Part shown: positions 11,348 through 23,187 of the stretch, in pieces
How the letters are laid out: each line of letters starts with the position of its first letter
Numbering within the stretch: the first letter of the stretch is position 1
Source: Erythrobacter sp.
Lineage (GTDB): Bacteria; Pseudomonadota; Alphaproteobacteria; Sphingomonadales; Sphingomonadaceae
Direction: 5' to 3'
Length of the DNA stretch: 64,000 bases
NCBI RefSeq assembly: GCF_024305245.1
Contig: NZ_JAMWYX010000005.1
Span: 1 to 64,000, forward strand
Notes under the pieces: generated by a model
Databases searched by the model: none
Told to the model about the DNA's origin: nothing
What the model saw: only the letters and a program-made list of their open reading frames with translations
Translations under genes and position numbers: made by a program

Positions 11348-11766
11348 GGAAGCTCCTCTCCTTAAATCCCCAACCCCGGTGCCGATTGTCGGCACGTCAT
11401 CTTCCGATGCGCTCTCTCCCGTGGTCGTTGGCCGGACTGATAAGCGAGCGGCGGTGTTGCGACAAGCGCAAAGCCCGCGCTTTTCCGGGGCAAAACGGTC
11501 CTGTGTGGCGCACTTGCAACAGTCGCAAGCCCCCTGCAAAGCATTGTCACCACCCCAAAGCTTGCTCCGCTGGCGCTCTTGCGCTAGGCGGCGCGGCGAT
11601 GTTGCAACGCAACAAGCAGCACGCCCGCGGCACGTTTGCCGTAGCGTCGCGGCCTGTCGCCAACCCGCCACAAACCCGGCCTAACCCCGCGCCCCTGGCC
11701 CGTGCGCCATGCTTTTGACCTTCCCGGAGCGGCTGCGCCCGGGTCGCAGAGTGGAAAATACGAAAA
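11348..11766. other. Intergenic region, 419 bases
   Basis: This gap separates the divergent TonB-dependent receptor and typA genes and must carry both promoters. I find no convincing small gene, RNA gene, terminator or strong palindrome. Short open frames here lack ribosome binding sites and family-like sequence. Confidence 0.5.
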
Positions 11767-13605
11767 ATGTCCTCCTCGCTGAGAAATATCGCGATTATCG
11801 CCCACGTCGACCACGGCAAGACCACTTTGGTCGACCAGTTGTTCCGCCAATCCGGCACCTACCGCGAGAATCAGCGGATCGAGGAGCGCGCGATGGATTC
11901 GGGCGATCTCGAAAAGGAACGCGGGATCACCATCCTTGCCAAGTGCACCAGCGTCGAATGGACACCCGAAGGTGGCGGTGAGACCACGCGCATCAATATC
12001 GTCGACACCCCCGGCCACGCCGACTTCGGCGCCGAGGTGGAACGCATCCTCAGCATGGTCGACGGGGTGATCCTGCTGGTCGACAGCGCCGAGGGCGCGA
12101 TGCCGCAGACCAAGTTCGTTACCGGCAAGGCGCTGGCGCTGGGCCTGCGTCCGATTGTCGTCGTCAACAAGATCGACCGCTCCGACAGCCGCCCGCAGGA
12201 AGTGCTGGACGAAGTGTTCGATCTGTTCGTCAGCCTGGATGCCGATGACGACCAGCTCGAATTCCCGGTGCTCTATGCTTCGGGCCGCGATGGCTATGCC
12301 AGCGAAGATCAGGACCGGCGCGAAGGCAGCCTTGCCCCGCTGTTCGCCAAGATCGTCGAGCACGTCCCCTCGCCCGGTCTGGATGCAACCGCGAAGTTCA
12401 GCTTCCTCGCCACGCTGCTCGACCGTGACAATTTCATGGGTCGCGTCATCACCGGCCGGGTGCAGTCGGGCACGATCAAGGTCAATGACCCGATCCACGC
12501 GATCGACATGGACGGGAAGGTCATCGAAGTCGGCCGCGCGACCAAGCTGATGAGCTTCGACGGGCTCGAACGCGTCCCGGTCGAAAGCGCCAAGGCGGGT
12601 GACATCATCGCCCTTGCCGGTCTTGAAAAAGCGACCGTCGCCAACACCATCTGCGATCCTTCGGTAAGCGAGCCGATCGCCGCCCAGCCGATCGACCCGC
12701 CGACGCTGGCGATGCGCTTTGCCGTCAACGACAGCCCGCTCGCCGGGCGCGAAGGCACCAAGGTCACCAGCCGCATGATCCGCGACCGCCTGCTGCGCGA
12801 GGCGGAGACCAACGTCGCCATCCGCGTGACCGAATCCGAGGACAAGGACGCCTTCGAAGTCGCCGGGCGCGGCGAATTGCAGCTGGGCGTGCTGATCGAA
12901 ACGATGCGCCGCGAAGGCTTCGAACTCGGCATCAGCCGCCCGCGCGTGCTGTTCCGCGAGGAAGACGGCAAGCGCATGGAGCCGTTCGAAACCGTCGTGA
13001 TCGACGTGGATGACGAACATTCGGGCACCGTCGTGGAGAAGATGCAGCGCCGCAAGGCCGACCTTACCGAAATGCGCCCCTCGGGCGTCGGCAAGACCCG
13101 CATCACCTTCTCCGCCCCGTCACGCGGGCTGATCGGCTATCACGGTGAATTCCTGTCCGACACGCGCGGCACCGGGATCATGAACCGTCTGTTCGAAAAA
13201 TATGATGCCTACAAAGGCCCGATCGAAGGCCGCAACAACGGCGTGCTGATTTCGAATGGCGATGGTGATGCCAATGCCTATGCGCTCAACATGCTGGAAG
13301 AACGCGGCGAATTGTTCATCGGCGCGCAGATGAAAGTCTATGCCGGCATGGTGATCGGTGAAAACGCCAAGCCCGACGATCTCGAAGTCAACCCGATGAA
13401 GGCCAAACAGCTTTCCAACGTGCGTTCCAGCGGCAAGGATGATGCAATCCGCCTCACCCCGCCGCGCCGGATGACGCTGGAACAGTCGATCGCCTATATC
13501 GACAATGACGAAATGGTCGAAGTGACCCCGCAATCGATACGCCTGCGCAAGGCCGAACTCGACCCGAACGAGCGCAAGAAGTTGCGCCGCAAGAAAGGCG
13601 ATTGA
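11767..13605 (+). CDS. typA: Ribosome-associated GTPase TypA/BipA
   Basis: A 612-residue translational GTPase related to EF-G. G1 is AHVDHGKTT, switch I contains RIEERAMDSGDLEKERGITI, G3 is DTPGHADFG and G4 is NKIDR. The C-terminal GLIGYHGEFLSDTRGTGIMNR segment is specific to TypA/BipA. The protein binds 70S ribosomes and supports 50S assembly and growth under stress or cold. Length is normal. It stands alone, with a GC-rich hairpin following. Confidence 0.96.
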   Translation: MSSSLRNIAIIAHVDHGKTTLVDQLFRQSGTYRENQRIEERAMDSGDLEKERGITILAKCTSVEWTPEGGGETTRINIVDTPGHADFGAEVERILSMVDGVILLVDSAEGAMPQTKFVTGKALALGLRPIVVVNKIDRSDSRPQEVLDEVFDLFVSLDADDDQLEFPVLYASGRDGYASEDQDRREGSLAPLFAKIVEHVPSPGLDATAKFSFLATLLDRDNFMGRVITGRVQSGTIKVNDPIHAIDMDGKVIEVGRATKLMSFDGLERVPVESAKAGDIIALAGLEKATVANTICDPSVSEPIAAQPIDPPTLAMRFAVNDSPLAGREGTKVTSRMIRDRLLREAETNVAIRVTESEDKDAFEVAGRGELQLGVLIETMRREGFELGISRPRVLFREEDGKRMEPFETVVIDVDDEHSGTVVEKMQRRKADLTEMRPSGVGKTRITFSAPSRGLIGYHGEFLSDTRGTGIMNRLFEKYDAYKGPIEGRNNGVLISNGDGDANAYALNMLEERGELFIGAQMKVYAGMVIGENAKPDDLEVNPMKAKQLSNVRSSGKDDAIRLTPPRRMTLEQSIAYIDNDEMVEVTPQSIRLRKAELDPNERKKLRRKKGD

Positions 13606-16225: not shown

Positions 16226-16846
16226 TCAGGCCCGCAATTTCGGTTCGAGCTTCGCCTCAAGCTGAAGCCGGACAGCTTCGGCGGCGTGGCGTGCGCCCAG
16301 TTTGTTCATCATGTTGGCGCGGTGAATTTCTACCGTGCGCGGGCTGATTTCGAGCTCGCGCGCGATGGCCTTGTTGCTGCTGCCCTCCGCCAGCCAGTCC
16401 AGCACTTCGCGTTCGCGTGTCGACAGCGTGGAGATGCGGTCGCGCGCCTCGATCATGCGGCGGCGGGCGGCGCCGAATTCTTCGGCCTCCTTGCCGATAC
16501 GGGAAAGGCAGCGGGTGAAGCGTTCCGGATCGAGCGGCAGGGCGAGGTAATCGAGCGCGCCTGATTTGATCGCTTCGACAATCCGGTTCGGGCGCGGCTG
16601 CACCTCGACCGCGATCAGCGGTAGCCAGATGCCGAGCCGGCCGAGCCGTTCGAGGATCATCCCAACCCCGCCTTCTTCCGCCGTATCGCGAGCGATGATG
16701 ATACCTTCGCGCGGCGGGTGAGCCGACAGCTCCGACAGATCGCCATAGACTTCGCAATGGTGGCCCAAGGCGAAGCCGACCCGCGCCAAATCGGCGCGCT
16801 GGCGGCTGCAGGAGTCGATCATATGGAGGGTTGGTTTACGTGTCAT
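16226..16846 (-). CDS. FixJ/NarL-type response regulator with a degenerate receiver
   Basis: About 206 residues from the ATG at 16846. The C-terminal LuxR-type helix-turn-helix is intact (STLSTREREVLDWLAEG, SNKAIARELEISPRTVEIHRANMMNKL). The N-terminal receiver keeps D11 and the likely phospho-acceptor D54 (IIIARD), but the conserved lysine is replaced in YLALPLD, where KP is expected, and the conserved Thr/Ser strand reads LIAVEV. It may be weakly or not phosphorylated. No histidine kinase is adjacent. It lies 142 bases beyond the Anbu gene on the same strand, so co-transcription is possible but not shown. Confidence 0.82.
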   Translation of the reverse strand: MTRKPTLHMIDSCSRQRADLARVGFALGHHCEVYGDLSELSAHPPREGIIIARDTAEEGGVGMILERLGRLGIWLPLIAVEVQPRPNRIVEAIKSGALDYLALPLDPERFTRCLSRIGKEAEEFGAARRRMIEARDRISTLSTREREVLDWLAEGSSNKAIARELEISPRTVEIHRANMMNKLGARHAAEAVRLQLEAKLEPKLRA

Positions 16847-16988
16847 GCGATGATGACTGCGCCAAACCCTTAGGCAATTCACGCAGTAGCGCCGCCAATC
16901 TGGACGGAACATCCTATCCCAGGTTAGTCAAGCCCTTGAGGTGCATGGCTTTTTTTCGTCCGAAACGAACCTTGATTATGTTCGCGAC

Positions 16989-17735
16989 TCAGCTTTTACC
17001 GTCAAAACTATAGGACGGCAGCGATTGAAACGCCGTGCGCAGCTCATCGCCCCAGCCCGATGAAATCGCAGTAAAATACGGGTCGTCGGCGGAAATGCGG
17101 TATTCGTGGGTGGGGGCAAAATCATCCTTGCCGATCACCAGCAGATCAAGCGGCAGCCCGACCGACAGGTTCGCCTTCAGAGTGGAATCGAAACTGACCA
17201 TCAGCAGCTTGACCGCATCCTCGAAGCTCATGTCGGGTTCGTAACCGCGGATCAGGATCGGGCGGCCATACTTGGTTTCGCCGATCTGGAAGAACGGGGT
17301 GTCCCAGCTGGCTTCGATGAAATTGCCTTCGGGATAGATCATGAATAGGCGCGGCTGCATTCCGGCGATCTGCCCGGCCACGATCATCGTGGCGGTAAAG
17401 CGCCCCTTGCCGCTGTCGCCATTGGTGCGCTGCGCATCCTCGATCGTGGCGCGCAGCAGGCGGCCGATTTCGGTCACGACTTGGAACATGGTCGGCCCCT
17501 TCAGCAGGGCGTTGTCGCGCTCGCTCGGCGCCTTGGTGCGCTCGTCCAGCTGGCTGATCACCGCCTGCGTGGTGGCAAGATTGCCTGCAGTCATCACCGC
17601 GATCATGCGTTCGCCCGGCACCGTCCAGTGGAACAGCTTGCGGAAGGTGGAGATGTTGTCGACGCCCGAATTGGTGCGGGTGTCGCTCATCAGCACCAGG
17701 CCTTGTTCCAGCACCATGCCAACGCAATAGGTCAT
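16989..17735 (-). CDS. Anbu-type bacterial proteasome homologue peptidase
   Basis: A 248-residue Ntn-hydrolase. The sequence opens MTYCVGMVLEQGLVLMSDTRT, placing the catalytic threonine directly after the initiator methionine, so removal of Met would expose it without a propeptide. Asp (MSD, residue 18) and Lys33 (FRKLF) match the proteasome beta-subunit catalytic set. Anbu proteins form open helical or ring assemblies in known cases; their substrate is unknown. It is the last gene of a minus-strand set with ATP-grasp, alpha-E and transglutaminase genes, the recurrent Anbu neighbourhood. An 88-base gap separates it from the transglutaminase gene. Confidence 0.9.
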   Translation of the reverse strand: MTYCVGMVLEQGLVLMSDTRTNSGVDNISTFRKLFHWTVPGERMIAVMTAGNLATTQAVISQLDERTKAPSERDNALLKGPTMFQVVTEIGRLLRATIEDAQRTNGDSGKGRFTATMIVAGQIAGMQPRLFMIYPEGNFIEASWDTPFFQIGETKYGRPILIRGYEPDMSFEDAVKLLMVSFDSTLKANLSVGLPLDLLVIGKDDFAPTHEYRISADDPYFTAISSGWGDELRTAFQSLPSYSFDGKS

Positions 17736-17823
17736 GTCGAATTCTCTCCGGGCCGCTGCAACAGGAGCGCCGCCCTAGCCCAATCGCAGGCAACGCGCAA
17801 AGCCGCGTGTGACCTGTTTGGGC

Positions 17824-18714
17824 TTATTGCGTCGTCTGGTTCTGAGACTGCGACTGCGATTGTGACTGCGACTGCGACTGCGACTGAGTCTGCGTGGCCG
17901 GTTGGGACTCCACCGCGACATCGACCCTGAGCTTTTCCTCGGTGCCGCCGAAGCTGATACCGGTTACCGGCGCGGCATCGCGGTAATCGCTACCGGTGGC
18001 GACCCGGACATAGCGCGGATCGGGACAGATCCCGTTCGACACATCGAAGCCGACCCAGCCCAGCCCTTCGACATGGGCTTCGGCCCAGGCGTGAGTGGCT
18101 TCCTGATCGATGCGATCATCCATCATCAGATAGCCGCTGACATAGCGCGCCGGAATCCCGCTCGCCCGCGCCGCGCCGATGAAGATATGCGCGTGATCCT
18201 GACACACGCCTGCGCATAGGCCGATCGATTCCTCGGCAGTGGTGGCAGAATGGGTGCGGCCTGTTTCATAGGCGACCCGTTCGCGGATCAGGCCCGACAG
18301 CGCGTGGAGAAAATCGAGCGGCGCCTGATCGGACGGCCCCTGAACCTCGCGCAGCAACGCGCGCAGCTTCGGCCCCGGGCGGGTGAGCGGGGTCTGGCGC
18401 AGAAAGCTCCACAACGGCAGGTGGCCCGAATGGCGGCCGATCACCCCGGCATTGTCTTCGGTCTCCACCACCCCTTCGCAGATCACCGTCACCTCGCGCG
18501 CGCCCTGTTCCAGCCCGATCAGCGTGACGTGGTTGAAATGCTGGTCGTCATATTCGAGCTCGGCATGGGCGTTCTCGAACCGCATCTGCCATTCGATGAT
18601 CCGCTGGCCCTGCGTTTCCTTGGGCGTCAGCCGCAGCCGCTGCAGCGCGTGCGTCACCGGCTCGGAAAAGGCGTAGTGGGTGGTGTGCCGGATCGCCAGT
18701 CTCATCGTGCTCAT
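17824..18714 (-). CDS. Transglutaminase-like cysteine protease-fold protein
   Basis: About 296 residues from the ATG at 18714, which has GAGG nearby upstream and lies 10 bases past the alpha-E stop. An N-terminal beta domain (RLAIRHTTHYAFSEPVTHALQRLRL) precedes the transglutaminase core with the Cys/His/Asp triad in GVCQDHAHIFIG, ATHAWAEAHV and GWVGFDVSNG. Members of this family in Anbu/ATP-grasp operons are proposed peptidases or peptide-ligating enzymes. The C-terminus is an unusual run of alternating Gln and Ser encoded by a hexanucleotide repeat. Confidence 0.88.
   Translation of the reverse strand: MSTMRLAIRHTTHYAFSEPVTHALQRLRLTPKETQGQRIIEWQMRFENAHAELEYDDQHFNHVTLIGLEQGAREVTVICEGVVETEDNAGVIGRHSGHLPLWSFLRQTPLTRPGPKLRALLREVQGPSDQAPLDFLHALSGLIRERVAYETGRTHSATTAEESIGLCAGVCQDHAHIFIGAARASGIPARYVSGYLMMDDRIDQEATHAWAEAHVEGLGWVGFDVSNGICPDPRYVRVATGSDYRDAAPVTGISFGGTEEKLRVDVAVESQPATQTQSQSQSQSQSQSQSQNQTTQ
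17846..17893. repeat. Hexanucleotide tandem repeat (GACTGC), about 8 units
   Basis: Eight consecutive 6-base units, five of them exactly GACTGC and the others differing by one or two bases. Read on the minus strand they encode the Gln-Ser tail of the transglutaminase-like protein. Because the unit is two codons long, copy-number change would lengthen or shorten the tail without shifting frame. Confidence 0.9.
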
Positions 18715-18724
18715 GCAAGCGTCC

Positions 18725-19669
18725 TCATGCGTGGAACCGGTAATCTTCGGCAATCGCGCGGGCAATTGCGGCGTCGCGGGCGAGGAAATCGATGAGGAAT
18801 TCGTGCAGCCCGGCCTCGAAGATCTGTTCGACCGTCAGATGGCTGATGCGGGTATCGGCATCGCGCATCAGCGCGTGGCAGCTGCCCTCGACCCCGTGGT
18901 TGCGCGCGAGCGCGGCAAGGCAATCGCGCAGCGCATTGCGGCAAAACGCCAGACTGCGCGGGAAGCGGTCGTCGAGCACCAGGAATTCGACGATCCCGCG
19001 CGCCTCGATCTTGCCGGCGTTGAGCCAGCTATAGACCCGCGCGCCCGCGACCGAGCGCAGCACCTGCTCCCACTGCCCGGTATCGAGGCTCGACCCGACA
19101 TAGGACAGCGACGGCAGCAGCAGGAAATACTTCATGTCGAGAATGCGCGCGGTGCTGTCGGCGCGTTCGATGAAGGTGCCCGCACGGCTGAAATGGTAGC
19201 CGTCGTCGCGCAGCATCGAGCCGTCGAATGCACCGTGAACCTGCGTGCCCGCCCGCCGGATCGCGCCCAGCACTTCGCCCACCGCCGTCTGGCCGACGGG
19301 GCGGGAGAGCATTGCATCTATCTTCATCCAGTTGTCGTTGACCGCTTCCCATACATCGCTGGAGATGTTGGTGCGGGCGGTGCGCGCATTGCTGCGAACC
19401 GCGCCGAACATCGCCCGGACATTGCCGGGGTTCGACGGATCGCGCAGCACGAAGTTCCAGACCGACTGCGCATCATACCCGTCATGCGCAGCGTCGTAGG
19501 CGCGCTGTAGACCCAGCGTCGCGATGACCGAGCGCCATTCCGCCTCGGCAGTCGCAAGATCGCGCGTCAGCGCCATCCGCAGCGCCGCATCGAGCAGGCG
19601 CGCGGTATTCTCGGCCCGCTCGAGATAGCGGAACATCCAGAACAATCCGTTGGCGGTGCGGCCTAGCAT
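18725..19669 (-). CDS. Alpha-E domain protein
   Basis: A 314-residue all-alpha protein of the Alpha-E family. The opening MLGRTANGLFWMFRYLERAENTARLLD is the family signature. Glu and Arg residues of the FRYLERAEN helix recur later in RAGTFIERADSTARILD, consistent with an internal helical repeat. Function is unknown; it co-occurs almost always with circularly permuted ATP-grasp and transglutaminase genes and is suspected to be part of a peptide-modifying complex. It starts 16 bases after the ATP-grasp stop. Confidence 0.9.
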   Translation of the reverse strand: MLGRTANGLFWMFRYLERAENTARLLDAALRMALTRDLATAEAEWRSVIATLGLQRAYDAAHDGYDAQSVWNFVLRDPSNPGNVRAMFGAVRSNARTARTNISSDVWEAVNDNWMKIDAMLSRPVGQTAVGEVLGAIRRAGTQVHGAFDGSMLRDDGYHFSRAGTFIERADSTARILDMKYFLLLPSLSYVGSSLDTGQWEQVLRSVAGARVYSWLNAGKIEARGIVEFLVLDDRFPRSLAFCRNALRDCLAALARNHGVEGSCHALMRDADTRISHLTVEQIFEAGLHEFLIDFLARDAAIARAIAEDYRFHA

Positions 19670-19685
19670 GAGCGTTCCCCGGCCA

Positions 19686-21119
19686 TCAGTCCTTCAGCAC
19701 CCAGGTATCCTTGGTGCCGCCCCCTTGCGAGGAATTGACCACCAGCGAACCCTTTTTCAGCGCCACCCGCGTGAGGCCGCCGGGAGTGATGTCGATCCCC
19801 TCGGGCGAGACGAGCACGAAGGGGCGCAGGTCGAGGTGGCGCGGCGCCAGCCCGGCACGGGTGTAGATCGGGCAGGTCGACAGCGCGAGCGTGGGCTGGG
19901 CGATGTAGTTATCCGGCTTGGCGATCAGTTTTTCGCGGAACGCGGCGATCTCGCGCTTGGACGATGTCGGCCCGATCAGCATCCCGTATCCGCCCGATCC
20001 GTGCACCTCTTTCACCACCAGTTCGGCAAGATTGTCGAGCACGTAGGCCAGGCTGTCCTTGTCGGCGCAGCGCCAGGTCTGGACATTGGGCAGCAGCGGC
20101 TTTTCGCCGGTATAGAATTCGACGATGTCGGGCATGAACGAATAGATCGCCTTGTCATCGGCCACCCCCGTTCCCGGCGCATTGGCGATCGTGATCCCGC
20201 CCGATCGGTACACATCCATGATGCCGGGGACGCCCAGCATACTGTCCGGATTGAAGCTCAGCGGATCGAGATAGTCGTCGTCTACCCGGCGATACAGCAC
20301 GTCGATCGGCTTGTACCCGCGCGTGGTGCGCATCTGCACCCGGCCTTCGACCACGCGCAGATCGCTGCCCTCGACCAGTTCGGCGCCCATCTGGTCGGCC
20401 AGAAAGGCGTGTTCGAAATAGGCGGAATTAAAGATGCCGGGAGTCAGCACCGCCACCGTCGGCTTGCCGCCGGTAAAGGCAGGCGGGACACAGGCGGCAA
20501 GGCTGCGGGCGAGGCGGCGCGGGTAGTTGGACACGCTCTCCACCGCGATGCGGCTGAACAGATCGGGGAACATCCCCATCATCGTTTCGCGGTTCTCCAG
20601 CATGTAGGAGACACCCGAAGGCGTGCGCGCATTATCTTCCAGCACGAAGAATTCATCCGGCCCGGTGCGGACCAGATCGATGCCGACGATATGGGTGTAA
20701 ATCCCGCCCGGCGGCGTGAAGCCGACCATGTTGGCCAGCCACGCGTCATTGGATTGCAGCAGCCGCGCAGGAAGGCGGCCTGCGCGCACGATCTCCTGCC
20801 GGTGATACAGATCGTAGAGGAACGAATTGAGCGCGCGCACCCGTTGTTCGATCCCGCGCGACAGGCGCCGCCATTCGCCGGCGGTGATAATGCGCGGCAC
20901 CATATCGAACGGGATCAGGCGTTCTTCGGCTGCATCCTCGCCATAGACGTTGAAGGTGATCCCGGTGCGGCGGAAACTGTCATCGGCTTCGCTGTTCTTG
21001 CGGCGCAGGAATTCGGCGGGCTGTTCGTCGTACCAGCGACAATACTCCGCATAGGCCGGCCGGGTCTGCCCGCTGCCATCAAACATCTCATCGAAATTGC
21101 CGTCGTCCGCGATCATCAA
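19686..21119 (-). CDS. Circularly permuted ATP-grasp protein
   Basis: A 477-residue ATP-grasp enzyme of the circularly permuted type 2 family. Recognisable stretches include FNVYGEDAAEERLIPFDMVPRII, the acidic VLEDNARTPSGVSYMLENR, DVLYRRVDDDYLDPL, ANAPGTGVADDKAIYSFMP and the lysine-bearing LVVKEVHGSGGYGMLIGP loop. Such enzymes form amide bonds through acyl phosphates; the natural substrate here is unknown. It is the first gene of the operon that continues with alpha-E, transglutaminase and Anbu, so it probably makes or tags a peptide handled by the others. Confidence 0.9.
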   Translation of the reverse strand: MMIADDGNFDEMFDGSGQTRPAYAEYCRWYDEQPAEFLRRKNSEADDSFRRTGITFNVYGEDAAEERLIPFDMVPRIITAGEWRRLSRGIEQRVRALNSFLYDLYHRQEIVRAGRLPARLLQSNDAWLANMVGFTPPGGIYTHIVGIDLVRTGPDEFFVLEDNARTPSGVSYMLENRETMMGMFPDLFSRIAVESVSNYPRRLARSLAACVPPAFTGGKPTVAVLTPGIFNSAYFEHAFLADQMGAELVEGSDLRVVEGRVQMRTTRGYKPIDVLYRRVDDDYLDPLSFNPDSMLGVPGIMDVYRSGGITIANAPGTGVADDKAIYSFMPDIVEFYTGEKPLLPNVQTWRCADKDSLAYVLDNLAELVVKEVHGSGGYGMLIGPTSSKREIAAFREKLIAKPDNYIAQPTLALSTCPIYTRAGLAPRHLDLRPFVLVSPEGIDITPGGLTRVALKKGSLVVNSSQGGGTKDTWVLKD

Positions 21120-21127
21120 CCCCCACA

Positions 21128-21168
21128 GGACCTTTTAGGTGCAATGCAGCAACCTAACGGACCTTTTA
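21128..21168. promoter_or_regulatory. Repeat-containing upstream region of the ATP-grasp/Anbu operon
   Basis: GGACCTTTTA occurs twice (21128-21137 and 21159-21168) with starts 31 bases apart, close to three DNA helical turns. Between the copies lies a 6-base inverted repeat, TTAGGT (21135-21140) and ACCTAA (21152-21157). The block begins 9 bases before the minus-strand operon start, a sensible place for an operator or promoter element. Confidence 0.45.
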
Positions 21169-21212
21169 CAAAAAGAAAGGGCTAGCTGCGCGTAGCAACC
21201 CGGCGAACCGCT

Positions 21213-22034
21213 TCAGCGGGTCGCTTCGAGTTCGTCCAGCAAGGTCGTGATGACCTGCGGTTCGTAAGTGAAGCCCATGTGGGTGCAGCGCACCGCCACC
21301 GCACGGTCCCGCTCGCCCGGACGCCCGGCTGCGCAACGCGGTGCGATAGCGCCGTCATTGGCGCTCCACATGGCGACCGTCTCAACCGGGGGTTTCGCCG
21401 CAAGGTCGGCGTCGATCGGCGGGGCATCGACACTGTGGCCGGTGATGAACTGGTAGGCGCGCCAGACGTTATTGGCCCGCGGCGATCCCGAGAACGGCGA
21501 ACCCATGGTGATGACCTTGGCGACCGCTTGCGGCTGACGCTTGGCCAGTTCGCGGGCGAACAGCCCGCCCAGGCTCCAGCCGATCAGCACCACCGGCTTG
21601 CCGTGGCACACGTGGAGATCGACCAGCCGCGCCTCCAACTGCGTGAAGCGCTCCTCGTCCGGCCCCCAGTTGAAGCCCAGCCCCCAACGCTTGGTGCGAT
21701 GGCCGGCGATTTCGAGCTGCTGCGCCAGATAGCGCATCCGCACCGGATGGGTGGCAAAGCCGGGCAGCAGCATCGCCATCTGCGGATTGGCGGTGATCGC
21801 GATATCGATTTTGCGACGACGGCGACGCACCGGTTCGAGCAGCACCGCCGCCTCGGCCAGCATCCGCACCAGTCGCGGCTTGCCCGCCTCGTGTTCCTCA
21901 GGACAGACTTCGCGCGCTAAAGCGACGCGGCGGCCGAACTCGCTTTGCCCCAACGCTGCCCGCGCGCCTTGCCCGGCAGCGGTGAACTGGCGGGAAAAGC
22001 GCGGAAAATCGGGGGCGAAGCGAAGCGATGGCAT
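21213..22034 (-). CDS. Alpha/beta hydrolase, EstA/lipase-like
   Basis: A 273-residue protein. The central region MAMLLPGFATHPVRMRYLAQQL with GWSLGGLFARELAKRQP provides the oxyanion strand and the nucleophile elbow (Ser in GWSLGG) of an alpha/beta hydrolase. MGSPFSGSP and WSANDGAIAP give the expected later strand and acidic residue, and a histidine in CTHMGFTYEP completes the triad. No signal peptide is evident; a basic patch (RRRRRK) lies at about residues 70-75. Similar to triacylglycerol lipase EstA-like proteins; substrate unknown. Confidence 0.78.
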   Translation of the reverse strand: MPSLRFAPDFPRFSRQFTAAGQGARAALGQSEFGRRVALAREVCPEEHEAGKPRLVRMLAEAAVLLEPVRRRRRKIDIAITANPQMAMLLPGFATHPVRMRYLAQQLEIAGHRTKRWGLGFNWGPDEERFTQLEARLVDLHVCHGKPVVLIGWSLGGLFARELAKRQPQAVAKVITMGSPFSGSPRANNVWRAYQFITGHSVDAPPIDADLAAKPPVETVAMWSANDGAIAPRCAAGRPGERDRAVAVRCTHMGFTYEPQVITTLLDELEATR

Positions 22035-22106: not shown

Positions 22107-22640
22107 TTACTGGGCGGGACAATCGCCGATGCGTTCATGCTTTGCGGCGAAGCTCATGGTACCCTCGCCCACGTCCGGCACGTTCAAAGCCATTGTCGCA
22201 GTGAAATCGGAACTGGTGGGGGTAGCGGTGCCGTTCATGGTCATGCGCGCATCGCCATCGGGGGTCTTGCACACCATTACCGCGTCCATATTACCACCCG
22301 CGAGTTCGAAGCTTTCGTAAGCGCATTCGCCGTTCTGGCCGCGCTTCATCATTTCCTCGAAGCCCTCGGCCACATCTTCTTCGGTCAGGCAATATTCGGT
22401 GGTGGTGGTGGCGCCCGCGCCGTGTCCTTCCATGCCTGCAGGCATTCCGGGAATATCCATTCCGGTCATGGTGATGGTGGCCTTGTACTGGCCGGGTTCG
22501 GGCGCGATGCCTTCTGCCTCGACCTTGCTGGCGACCTCGCCTGCGCTCACAGCGCCGTCACCATCGGCATCGGCCGAAGTTTCTCCTCCGCAGGACGCAA
22601 GAGCCAGGGCTGCCAGAGCCGGTGCCATCAGATAACGCAT
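22107..22640 (-). CDS. DUF3617 lipoprotein with an N-terminal EF-hand loop
   Basis: About 177 residues from the ATG at 22640 (AAGGAG upstream). A signal peptide ends in lipobox LALASC. Just after the cysteine, [12 protein letters not shown] matches a calcium-binding EF-hand loop: D at positions 1, 3 and 5, G at 6, a hydrophobic residue at 8, E at 12. The rest is a DUF3617 domain with paired cysteines ([30 protein letters not shown]). Function of DUF3617 is unknown. The next gene is a shorter paralogue without the EF-hand. Confidence 0.82.
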
Positions 22641-22719
22641 TGATTCACTCCTTGGTGCGAGTGTGGAAACAGGTCGGCCCACCATGGACCAGCCAAATGC
22701 CGCCCAGATACTGCAAGGC

Positions 22720-23187
22720 TCAGCAGTCGCCGATGCGCTTTTGCCTGACCCGCATGGACATCGATCCGGGACCAGGCCCCATATTGCCCCTCATCATCAT
22801 CGTTACATCCGAAGTTGTCGGCGTGCCCGTGCCCGTCATCGTCAGGTTCATCGGCCCGTTATCGGTGTCGCAGACCATTTCGGCGTTCATCTTGCCGCCG
22901 GTCGCGGAGAAGCTTTTGTACTTGCACTCGCCGTCCTGCGATTTGCGCAGCGCGTCCTTGTAGCCTTCCTCGACCTCTTCGGGAGTAAGGCAGATCGTGA
23001 CCGAGCGTTCGAACGCGCCTTTCATCATGCCCATCATGTTGGCTGGCACGCCCGGAATATCCATCGAAAGAAGCTCGACGCGCGATTCATACTTGCCCGG
23101 CAGCGGCTTCATGTCCTCGTCCACCGTCTGGGCCATCACCGCCCCCGCACCCAGAAGCACAACCGCACTGCTCAACCAAACCTTCAT
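22720..23187 (-). CDS. DUF3617 secreted protein
   Basis: A 155-residue protein with a signal peptide ([20 protein letters not shown]). The DUF3617 domain shares with its downstream neighbour the segments [51 protein letters not shown] and C-terminal RIGDC, so the two arose by tandem duplication and have since diverged strongly. Cysteines are probably disulfide-bonded in the periplasm. Role unknown. Confidence 0.82.

Follow-up and report, generated by a model that had tools for sequence, protein, structure and literature searches.

In Yersinia bercovieri, Pseudomonas and other bacteria, the proteasome-like protein Anbu is encoded in an operon together with an ATP-grasp ligase, an alpha-E protein and a transglutaminase-fold protein (PMC6376114; PMC5666114; papers are cited throughout for the passages drawn on here). 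Since 2008-2009, when Anbu and its partners were described (as cited in PMC6376114), their role has been a standing question, partly for want of a known growth state in which to look for it. The same ATP-grasp, alpha-E and transglutaminase families make up related gene sets in Pseudomonas putida (PP_2688-PP_2685) and Burkholderia cenocepacia (I35_5080-5083); in the Burkholderia gene list, one transglutaminase-domain gene is large and none is proteasome-like.

Here, we analyze a locus on the minus strand, at positions 16989-21116, of a 64,000-nucleotide (nt) stretch of Erythrobacter sp. (assembly GCF_024305245.1, contig NZ_JAMWYX010000005.1), hereafter the window. The locus has the same four families in the same order and the same Thr1/Asp17/Lys32 site in Anbu, so that, judged by sequence, the gene set is the known, published Anbu operon and its content is not new. 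A preliminary description of this DNA was right to treat the substrate as unresolved. What distinguishes the locus from the published operons is a PhaR-type operator at its presumed promoter, also present in part of the sphingomonads, and, in the near clade to which the window belongs, linked hydrolase and FixJ-like genes. The new element is this proposed regulatory link, a computational prediction that lends itself readily to experiment. The best overall explanation, which we consider rather likely, is that the known Anbu operon stands under PhaR-type control responding to the polyhydroxybutyrate (PHB) state, combined with the amide chemistry proposed below.

A candidate PhaR-like operator upstream of the operon

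The candidate operator, TTGCTGCATTGCACCTA, occupies positions 21136-21152 on the minus strand, with its near edge about 20 bases before the first base of the ATP-grasp ATG, and is built around the palindrome TTGCTGCATTGCACC. From its position, it would lie at the promoter. PhaR is a regulator that responds to PHB granules. In Sinorhizobium meliloti, for which binding results are given promoter by promoter, the PhaR motif is WNWD2NYGCRNYGCRNH2WNW, and the motif also appears as CTGC-N3-GCAG (PMC12542648). A symmetric, 17 base-pair (bp) matrix was built from 17 sites in the 15 promoters rated 'Efficient' in Table 3 of that paper, where only one of the four exoH sites was used; its maximum is 25.5 bits, and a site was counted when it reached at least 12 bits. 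The window operator scores 21.2 of these 25.5 bits and fits the palindrome YGCRNYGCR, with flanks that resemble published PhaR sites.

The family sample consists of the Erythrobacter genome and 60 relatives, out of 124 genomes with a match among 149 family genomes. Of these 61 sphingomonad genomes, 27 have a site of at least 12 bits within the 170 nt that precede the ATP-grasp gene, compared with 16 of 2379 tiles from elsewhere in the same loci (Fisher 1.5e-35, with rows that are not independent). Because the control tiles are mostly coding, shuffles and the upstream regions of Rhodobacterales are the better controls. Markov shuffles gave a mean of 0.65 and a maximum of 3 of 61, column-permuted symmetric matrices (up to 300 tries) gave a mean of 0.25 and a maximum of 6 of 61, and none of the 23 Rhodobacterales upstream regions holds a site. 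By clade, the site is present in 10/27 loci of the near clade including the window, in 2/6 of the group L061-L066, and in 15/28 of the deep clade. A de novo search for dyads returned TGCA-N1-TGCA as its top element, in 11/61 regions, with shuffle maxima up to 9; de novo dyads alone are weak, and the case for the operator rests on the independent, published matrix.

The phaR and phasin genes of the same genomes act as a positive control for this matrix. The PhaR family is found in 59 of the 61 genomes, including that of the window (PF07879, E 3.5e-31). Phasin loci were available from 30 of the 61 genomes, and 29 of the 30 carry paired sites, spaced 44-48 nt start to start and scoring 15 to 25.5 bits. 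These sites lie within 150 nt upstream of the first in-frame ATG, or across it, in 27 of the 29; the exceptions are L123, where the sites are 309-356 nt upstream, and L109, where they fall inside the longest frame. The Erythrobacter phasin (L121) has sites of 25.1 and 24.7 bits at -78 and -31, and the phaR gene of the same genome has an 18.1-bit site whose end lies 45 nt ahead of the first ATG, a position compatible with autoregulation. The operator described for the S. meliloti PhaR (AniA) regulon (PMC12542648) is in this way matched at the Anbu operon and also at sphingomonad phasin and phaR genes.

Within the genus, we compared the window locus with the 28 best-matching of 53 congeners with a match, keeping the genomes G041 and G121 apart. 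The site is present in 16/29 loci, in 15 of them at 55-57 nt before a conserved FD codon and in L228 at 74 nt. Among the 13 loci that have no site, 10 keep CTTTCCTTTT upstream and most have GCGGGGG before the ATG, and by eye the palindrome is gone or was never present; L227 has a partial site (7.7). This pattern looks as if a single operator had been gained or lost within a promoter that was otherwise kept.

Several observations weigh against control by PhaR. No site of at least 12 bits was found in 34/61 family genomes, in those 13/29 genus loci, or in the congeners L035 (G041) and L036 (G121), which are counted in the family set. Among named contigs (the top 80 out of at least 595 relatives, sorted by their titles, with some loci cut by contig ends), only 3/21 from sphingomonads have a site, in a set weighted to the closest relatives. 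The empty Rhodobacterales regions belong here as well as among the controls. The state of the site changes at least 20 times on the ATP-grasp tree, a quick tree in which 17/62 inner branches are open and the outgroup is not one-sided. Two genomes have an operator site and no detected phaR: the well-assembled G017 (site L069, 21.4), in which neither the family profile nor a search with the Erythrobacter PhaR found the gene and in which the phasin has no sites, and the draft G116 (L038). By the tree, the operator is labile, yet it occurs in two operon versions that are deeply separated.

Other matches to the matrix are recorded separately. Three Rhizobiales loci gave matches of 13.4, 14.6 and 18.0 bits, which were not counted as evidence for PhaR because they fall on an element, TTCTTGCATTG, that is common to many loci there and is sigma-54-like in six. 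The window contains two sites of at least 12 bits in all; the other one, ATGTTGCAACGCAACAA at 11599-11615, also scores 21.2 bits and lies ~150 nt ahead of a gene whose start is at 11767, by eye a GTPase of the typA/bipA kind, and may reflect either PhaR control or chance. A perfect palindrome, TGCTGCAATGCAGCA, was also seen around position 1500 of L095 (C18:258108 in the Erythrobacter genome), between two minus-strand genes that by eye are NADH dehydrogenase-like and biotin carboxylase-like.

Storage polymer and nitrogen as candidate signals

We propose that PhaR probably binds this operator and represses the operon, and that PHB granules relieve the repression. Granules that form under surplus carbon and limiting nitrogen would titrate PhaR off the operator, allowing the operon to be expressed. 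Extended to the family, the proposal is that the sphingomonad Anbu operon belongs to the PhaR regulon and is switched on by PHB granules, that other Proteobacteria switch on the same module through NtrC and sigma-54, and that the tie to PhaR was gained or retained in two operon versions that parted long ago; this wider statement we favor by a narrow balance. In the different lineages, PhaR and NtrC/sigma-54 would report much the same state.

On the alternative view, the element is a promoter of the sigma-54 type (-24/-12) under NtrC, active on nitrogen limitation, and its likeness to PhaR sites is coincidental or secondary. Candidate elements were scored against the familiar consensus strings for sigma-54 and NtrC. 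The window and L245 share AGGTTGCTGCATTGCA, which holds GG-N10-GC with TTGCA, and GG-N10-GC overlaps 7/16 genus sites (3 of them with TTGC) and 5/27 family sites, with the window in both sets; the palindrome is in every site of both sets, by definition of the count. An NtrC-consensus match of 10/12 is present in the window, as in 5/61 upstream regions including it, against 18/1220 shuffles with at least 10, and rpoN was found in 61/61 genomes, so that these features, too, count against PhaR. However, the NtrC-like match in the window overlaps the palindrome, whose TGCA supplies part of it, and it sits beside the start codon rather than far upstream, where NtrC sites usually are. In 56/61 upstream regions the best NtrC match is 6-9 of 12, as in most shuffles. 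Outside the sphingomonads, six Rhizobiales loci carry the sigma-54-like element TGGTTCTTGCATTGC at -64 to -67, and the region upstream of Burkholderia lata L214 matches sigma-54 at 10/12 and NtrC at 11/12. For the window, we consider the sigma-54 explanation quite improbable. PhaR is preferred on three grounds: the matrix derives from PhaR-bound promoters, it also picks out the phasin genes of the same genomes, and most of the sites it finds have no GG-N10-GC.

In other lineages, control by NtrC on nitrogen limitation has been reported for Burkholderia and is likely for Pseudomonas and Rhizobium. In B. cenocepacia, I35_5080-5083 (DUF404/407, DUF403 and two transglutaminase-domain genes) are NtrC-dependent, with values of -8.2, -9.4, -9.4 and -6.0 in an ntrC mutant (PMC5491218). 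The P. putida operon is raised on nitrogen limitation, in two of three papers during polyhydroxyalkanoate (PHA) synthesis. In nitrogen-limited, PHA-making cells, PP_2686-2688 reach 11 to 37 and PP_2685 (Anbu) 1.1 to 4.8, and control by NtrB/NtrC is called likely (PMC7801951). Values of 11.1/4.0, 6.6/4.6 and 7.1/2.6 are given for PP2685, PP2686 and PP2687 in PMC3325844, and on nitrate relative to ammonium the log2 changes are 4.44 for PP_2685 and 3.99 for PP_2688 (PMC8050072). The idea that Anbu is less induced than the core holds in PMC7801951 only and was dropped, since Anbu is induced about equally or more in the other two papers. An RpoN site is predicted before a CP_ATPgrasp_1 gene of Bradyrhizobium (PMC13207237). 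Taken across lineages, the common signal would be nitrogen shortage, often with carbon surplus, read by regulators that differ.

No paper linking Anbu or its operon with PhaR was found among open-licence PMC papers. In PMC12542648, Table 3 lists no Anbu, alpha-E or transglutaminase gene and the main text contains neither 'transglutaminase' nor 'proteasome'; one ATP-grasp protein, SMb21227, is listed as PhaR-affected. A PHB-sensing operator, together with the nitrogen-limitation control reported elsewhere, would point to the growth state, to phaR as a control gene and to the phasin promoter as a positive control, and searches for product and substrate could be run under inducing conditions. The link would join carbon-polymer storage to a proteasome-like module, of which Anbu itself is suggested to be an optional part.

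Operon genes, conservation and proposed chemistry

The four genes are uninterrupted open reading frames on the minus strand (from a list of frames of 80 amino acids (aa) and more), and their names, order and compactness are as first described, with Pfam and PDB matches in agreement. The first gene, at 19686-21116, encodes a circularly permuted ATP-grasp ligase (CP_ATPgrasp_1/2) of 476 aa, with matches to Pfam CP_ATPgrasp_2 (1.1e-160) and, nearly full-length, to PDB 3n6x (E 6.7e-194). The limit of 21119 given in the preliminary description is a TTG, and an ATG at 21116 follows GGGGG, an arrangement common to most congeners. The alpha-E protein (18725-19669, 314 aa; Pfam Alpha-E 3.3e-85) has no sequence relative in the PDB at E<=1. 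The transglutaminase-fold protein (17824-18714, 296 aa) matches Transglut_core (6e-21), Bact_transglu_N (1.5e-19) and PDB 3isr (E 4.2e-15); its C-terminus has a Ser-Gln repeat encoded by a degenerate hexamer array of 8.8 copies at 17842-17894, in which length variation is possible. Anbu (16989-17735, 248 aa; Pfam Proteasome 8.2e-13), in which Met precedes Thr1, is matched by the solved Anbu chains 5loy, 5nyj, 5nyf, 5nyw and 5lox at E 3.3e-82 to 8.8e-64 (278.9-218.6 bits), with the next proteasome chain at 26.5 bits and 20S subunits far behind. In the genome, PF04174 and PF04168 are each matched once, and contig C5 carries another proteasome-fold gene that is probably HslV, as judged by score and length only. 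The gaps between the genes are 16, 10 and 88 nt, and no terminator-like site was found between operon genes, the sole one found lying within the ATP-grasp gene; this spacing is compatible with transcription as a single mRNA.

The preliminary description had also stated that the neighbourhood recurs in bacteria, and the family sample bears this out for a published four-gene operon. The ATP-grasp, alpha-E and transglutaminase genes have the same order and strand in 60/60 relatives, and Anbu is next to them in 55/60. Two of the five relatives without Anbu at the locus have an Anbu match elsewhere (39-42% identity), while G055, G091 and G110 keep the other three genes and have no Anbu match genome-wide, although a very divergent Anbu could escape. 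Among the named contigs, Anbu was found within the fetched 5 kb in 20/21 sphingomonads (the exception being a contig end), 23/23 Rhodobacterales, 13/27 Rhizobiales, 5/5 Caulobacterales/Hyphomonadales, 3/3 others and 0/1 Burkholderia. The three remaining families form a constant core, and Anbu, the part most often missing, looks auxiliary. A second ATP-grasp match is present in 17/60 genomes. In a second system of the same three core families (L215-L222; six of the eight loci come from those 17 genomes), ATP-grasp, alpha-E and transglutaminase matches adjoin in 8/8 fetched loci, with ATP-grasp and alpha-E fused (up to about 850 aa) and the transglutaminase beside them, and none of the 8 fetched stretches (about 5 kb each) shows an Anbu match.

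Residue conservation was followed in alignments of up to 141 rows (the window, 60 relatives and 80 named loci). Ten inspected ATP-grasp residues (E160, N162, R164, S167, K322, K369, S374, G375, G376 and Q464) are kept in 141/141 rows, and the window transglutaminase has Cys171-His208-Asp224, residues that in both proteins we take to be catalytic. The transglutaminase His is kept in 139/140 and the Asp in 138/140 rows, the others being gaps. The Cys is kept in 133/140 rows and replaced in L073, L077, L083, L088, L089, L092 and L214, of which L077, L089, L092 and L214 also have no Anbu at the locus. All six sphingomonad loci without the Cys fall within the 17/60 genomes with a second ATP-grasp match (hypergeometric 2.5e-4, shared ancestry left in), which is no more than suggestive of a tie between Cys loss and the second copy. 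Because Anbu is dispensable and the transglutaminase Cys is sometimes lost, ATP-grasp and alpha-E may be regarded as the heart of the system. For Anbu, Thr1/Asp17/Lys32 (active-site positions Thr1, Asp17 and Lys32/33 as given in PMC6376114) are kept in 119/120 rows, with the remaining row gapped. Loss of catalytic residues, which the preliminary description had named as evidence against its reading if found on structural modelling, is not seen in the window, where the alignment retains those of Anbu, ATP-grasp and transglutaminase alike.

The alpha-E protein has twelve charged residues that are invariant in 141/141 rows. Its residues 7-97 align to about 155-254 (hhalign E 7.9e-15, probability 98.4), the two halves match one another in BLASTP (E 2e-4), and each half bears one ER...TAR motif, at residues 17-24 and 168-175; Pfam describes a conserved ER motif for Alpha-E. 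By these comparisons the protein is an internal duplication, for which no statement was found in the passages of the literature examined. A kinship of alpha-E with HEPN proteins was considered and dropped, since the supposed DUF403 match in the relevant passage of PMC3710099 appears to be the string DUF4037.

For the chemistry, we propose that the ATP-grasp ligase, helped by alpha-E, would join an amine to a carboxylate (of an amino acid, a peptide or a protein side chain) via an acyl phosphate. The transglutaminase-fold protein would move or cleave the amide through its Cys, and Anbu would hydrolyze either the product or the protein so marked; nitrogen would in this way be set aside or recovered. 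That amide formation, Cys-dependent transfer or cleavage, and hydrolysis by Anbu take place in this way in a PHB-forming, nitrogen-short state is a tentative proposal, held with low confidence. If the wider PhaR proposal is true, the module would be a dedicated nitrogen-economy partner of carbon storage.

The preliminary description had favored a system of peptide tagging and degradation, a hypothesis already published (Iyer 2009, as cited in PMC6376114 and PMC5666114). In the published proposal, ATP-grasp and alpha-E would put a tag, either a peptide or an amino acid, on proteins, the transglutaminase-fold enzyme would edit it and Anbu would degrade the tagged proteins. The hypothesis is a matter of chemistry and could be true alongside control by PhaR or NtrC. 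It would account for two potential amide-bond enzymes and a compartment-type hydrolase in one operon, and it is in keeping with the binding of proteasome inhibitors to Thr1 of P. aeruginosa Anbu (PMC5666114) and the release of phosphate from ATP by the Y. bercovieri ATP-grasp protein (PMC6376114). However, Y. bercovieri Anbu had no peptidase activity on the substrates tested, and no complex with its operon partners was detected (PMC6376114), while an Anbu-2 was unreactive with proteasome inhibitors (PMC5666114). The absence of Anbu from 5/60 loci, with the other three genes kept in G055, G091 and G110, and the replaced Cys also argue against tagging, which we judge less likely than not. Another possibility is that the core three proteins make and break a nitrogen-rich amide or peptide metabolite for storage or salvage, with Anbu as its amidase and no tagging of proteins, a reading independent of the choice of regulator. 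Expression under nitrogen limitation in several lineages, a constant core with a dispensable Anbu, the invariant charged residues of alpha-E, which resemble an active or ligand site, and the naming of PDB 3n6x as a putative glutathionylspermidine synthase all lend it some weight. The ring form of Anbu and its binding of inhibitors led the authors of PMC5666114 to regard peptide synthesis as less likely than protein degradation, and we consider this small-molecule role possible, short of an even chance.

Neighboring genes and promoter repeats

Directly upstream of the operon, at 21213-22034 on the minus strand, lies an alpha/beta hydrolase gene (Pfam Abhydrolase_1 3.8e-07). An alpha/beta hydrolase is found upstream within 700 nt on the same strand in 25/26 near-clade loci and in 0/34 others, and it may be a lineage-specific fifth gene. 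Directly downstream, at 16226-16912 on the minus strand (start at 16912 or 16846), is a gene for a FixJ-like regulator of the LuxR type (GerE 4.4e-23), in which no receiver domain was found by Pfam; the FixJ model matches it at 3.2e-32 but with 111.7 bits, under its cut-off of 255. A gene of this kind follows Anbu on the same strand in 22/26 near-clade loci. Further away, two neighboring DUF3617 genes at 22107-23187 are perhaps a tandem duplication.

Repeats at the promoter had been described as well, and GGACCTTTTA does occur there twice, as 10-bp copies at 21128-21137, overlapping the operator by 2 bp, and at 21159-21168. When the 96-nt gap was Markov-shuffled 20,000 times, an exact direct repeat of 10 bp arose in 1.3% of cases; 8/673 window tiles of 95 nt contain such a repeat, and not one copy of GGACCTTTTA was found in the 28 congener upstream regions. 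Being weakly beyond chance and missing from these congeners, it was rejected as a regulatory element. Within this sample the direct repeats are private to the Erythrobacter genome, and the element that recurs is the PhaR-like palindrome between the copies. A sigma-70 scan of 16850-21300 gave no promoter-like match (shuffles, mean 1.3), and no promoter was called as a result. Many of the congeners L223-L248 have, by eye, an imperfect inverted repeat like GCTTTC-N7-GAAAGC slightly further upstream than the operator, which persists in congeners that lost the operator.

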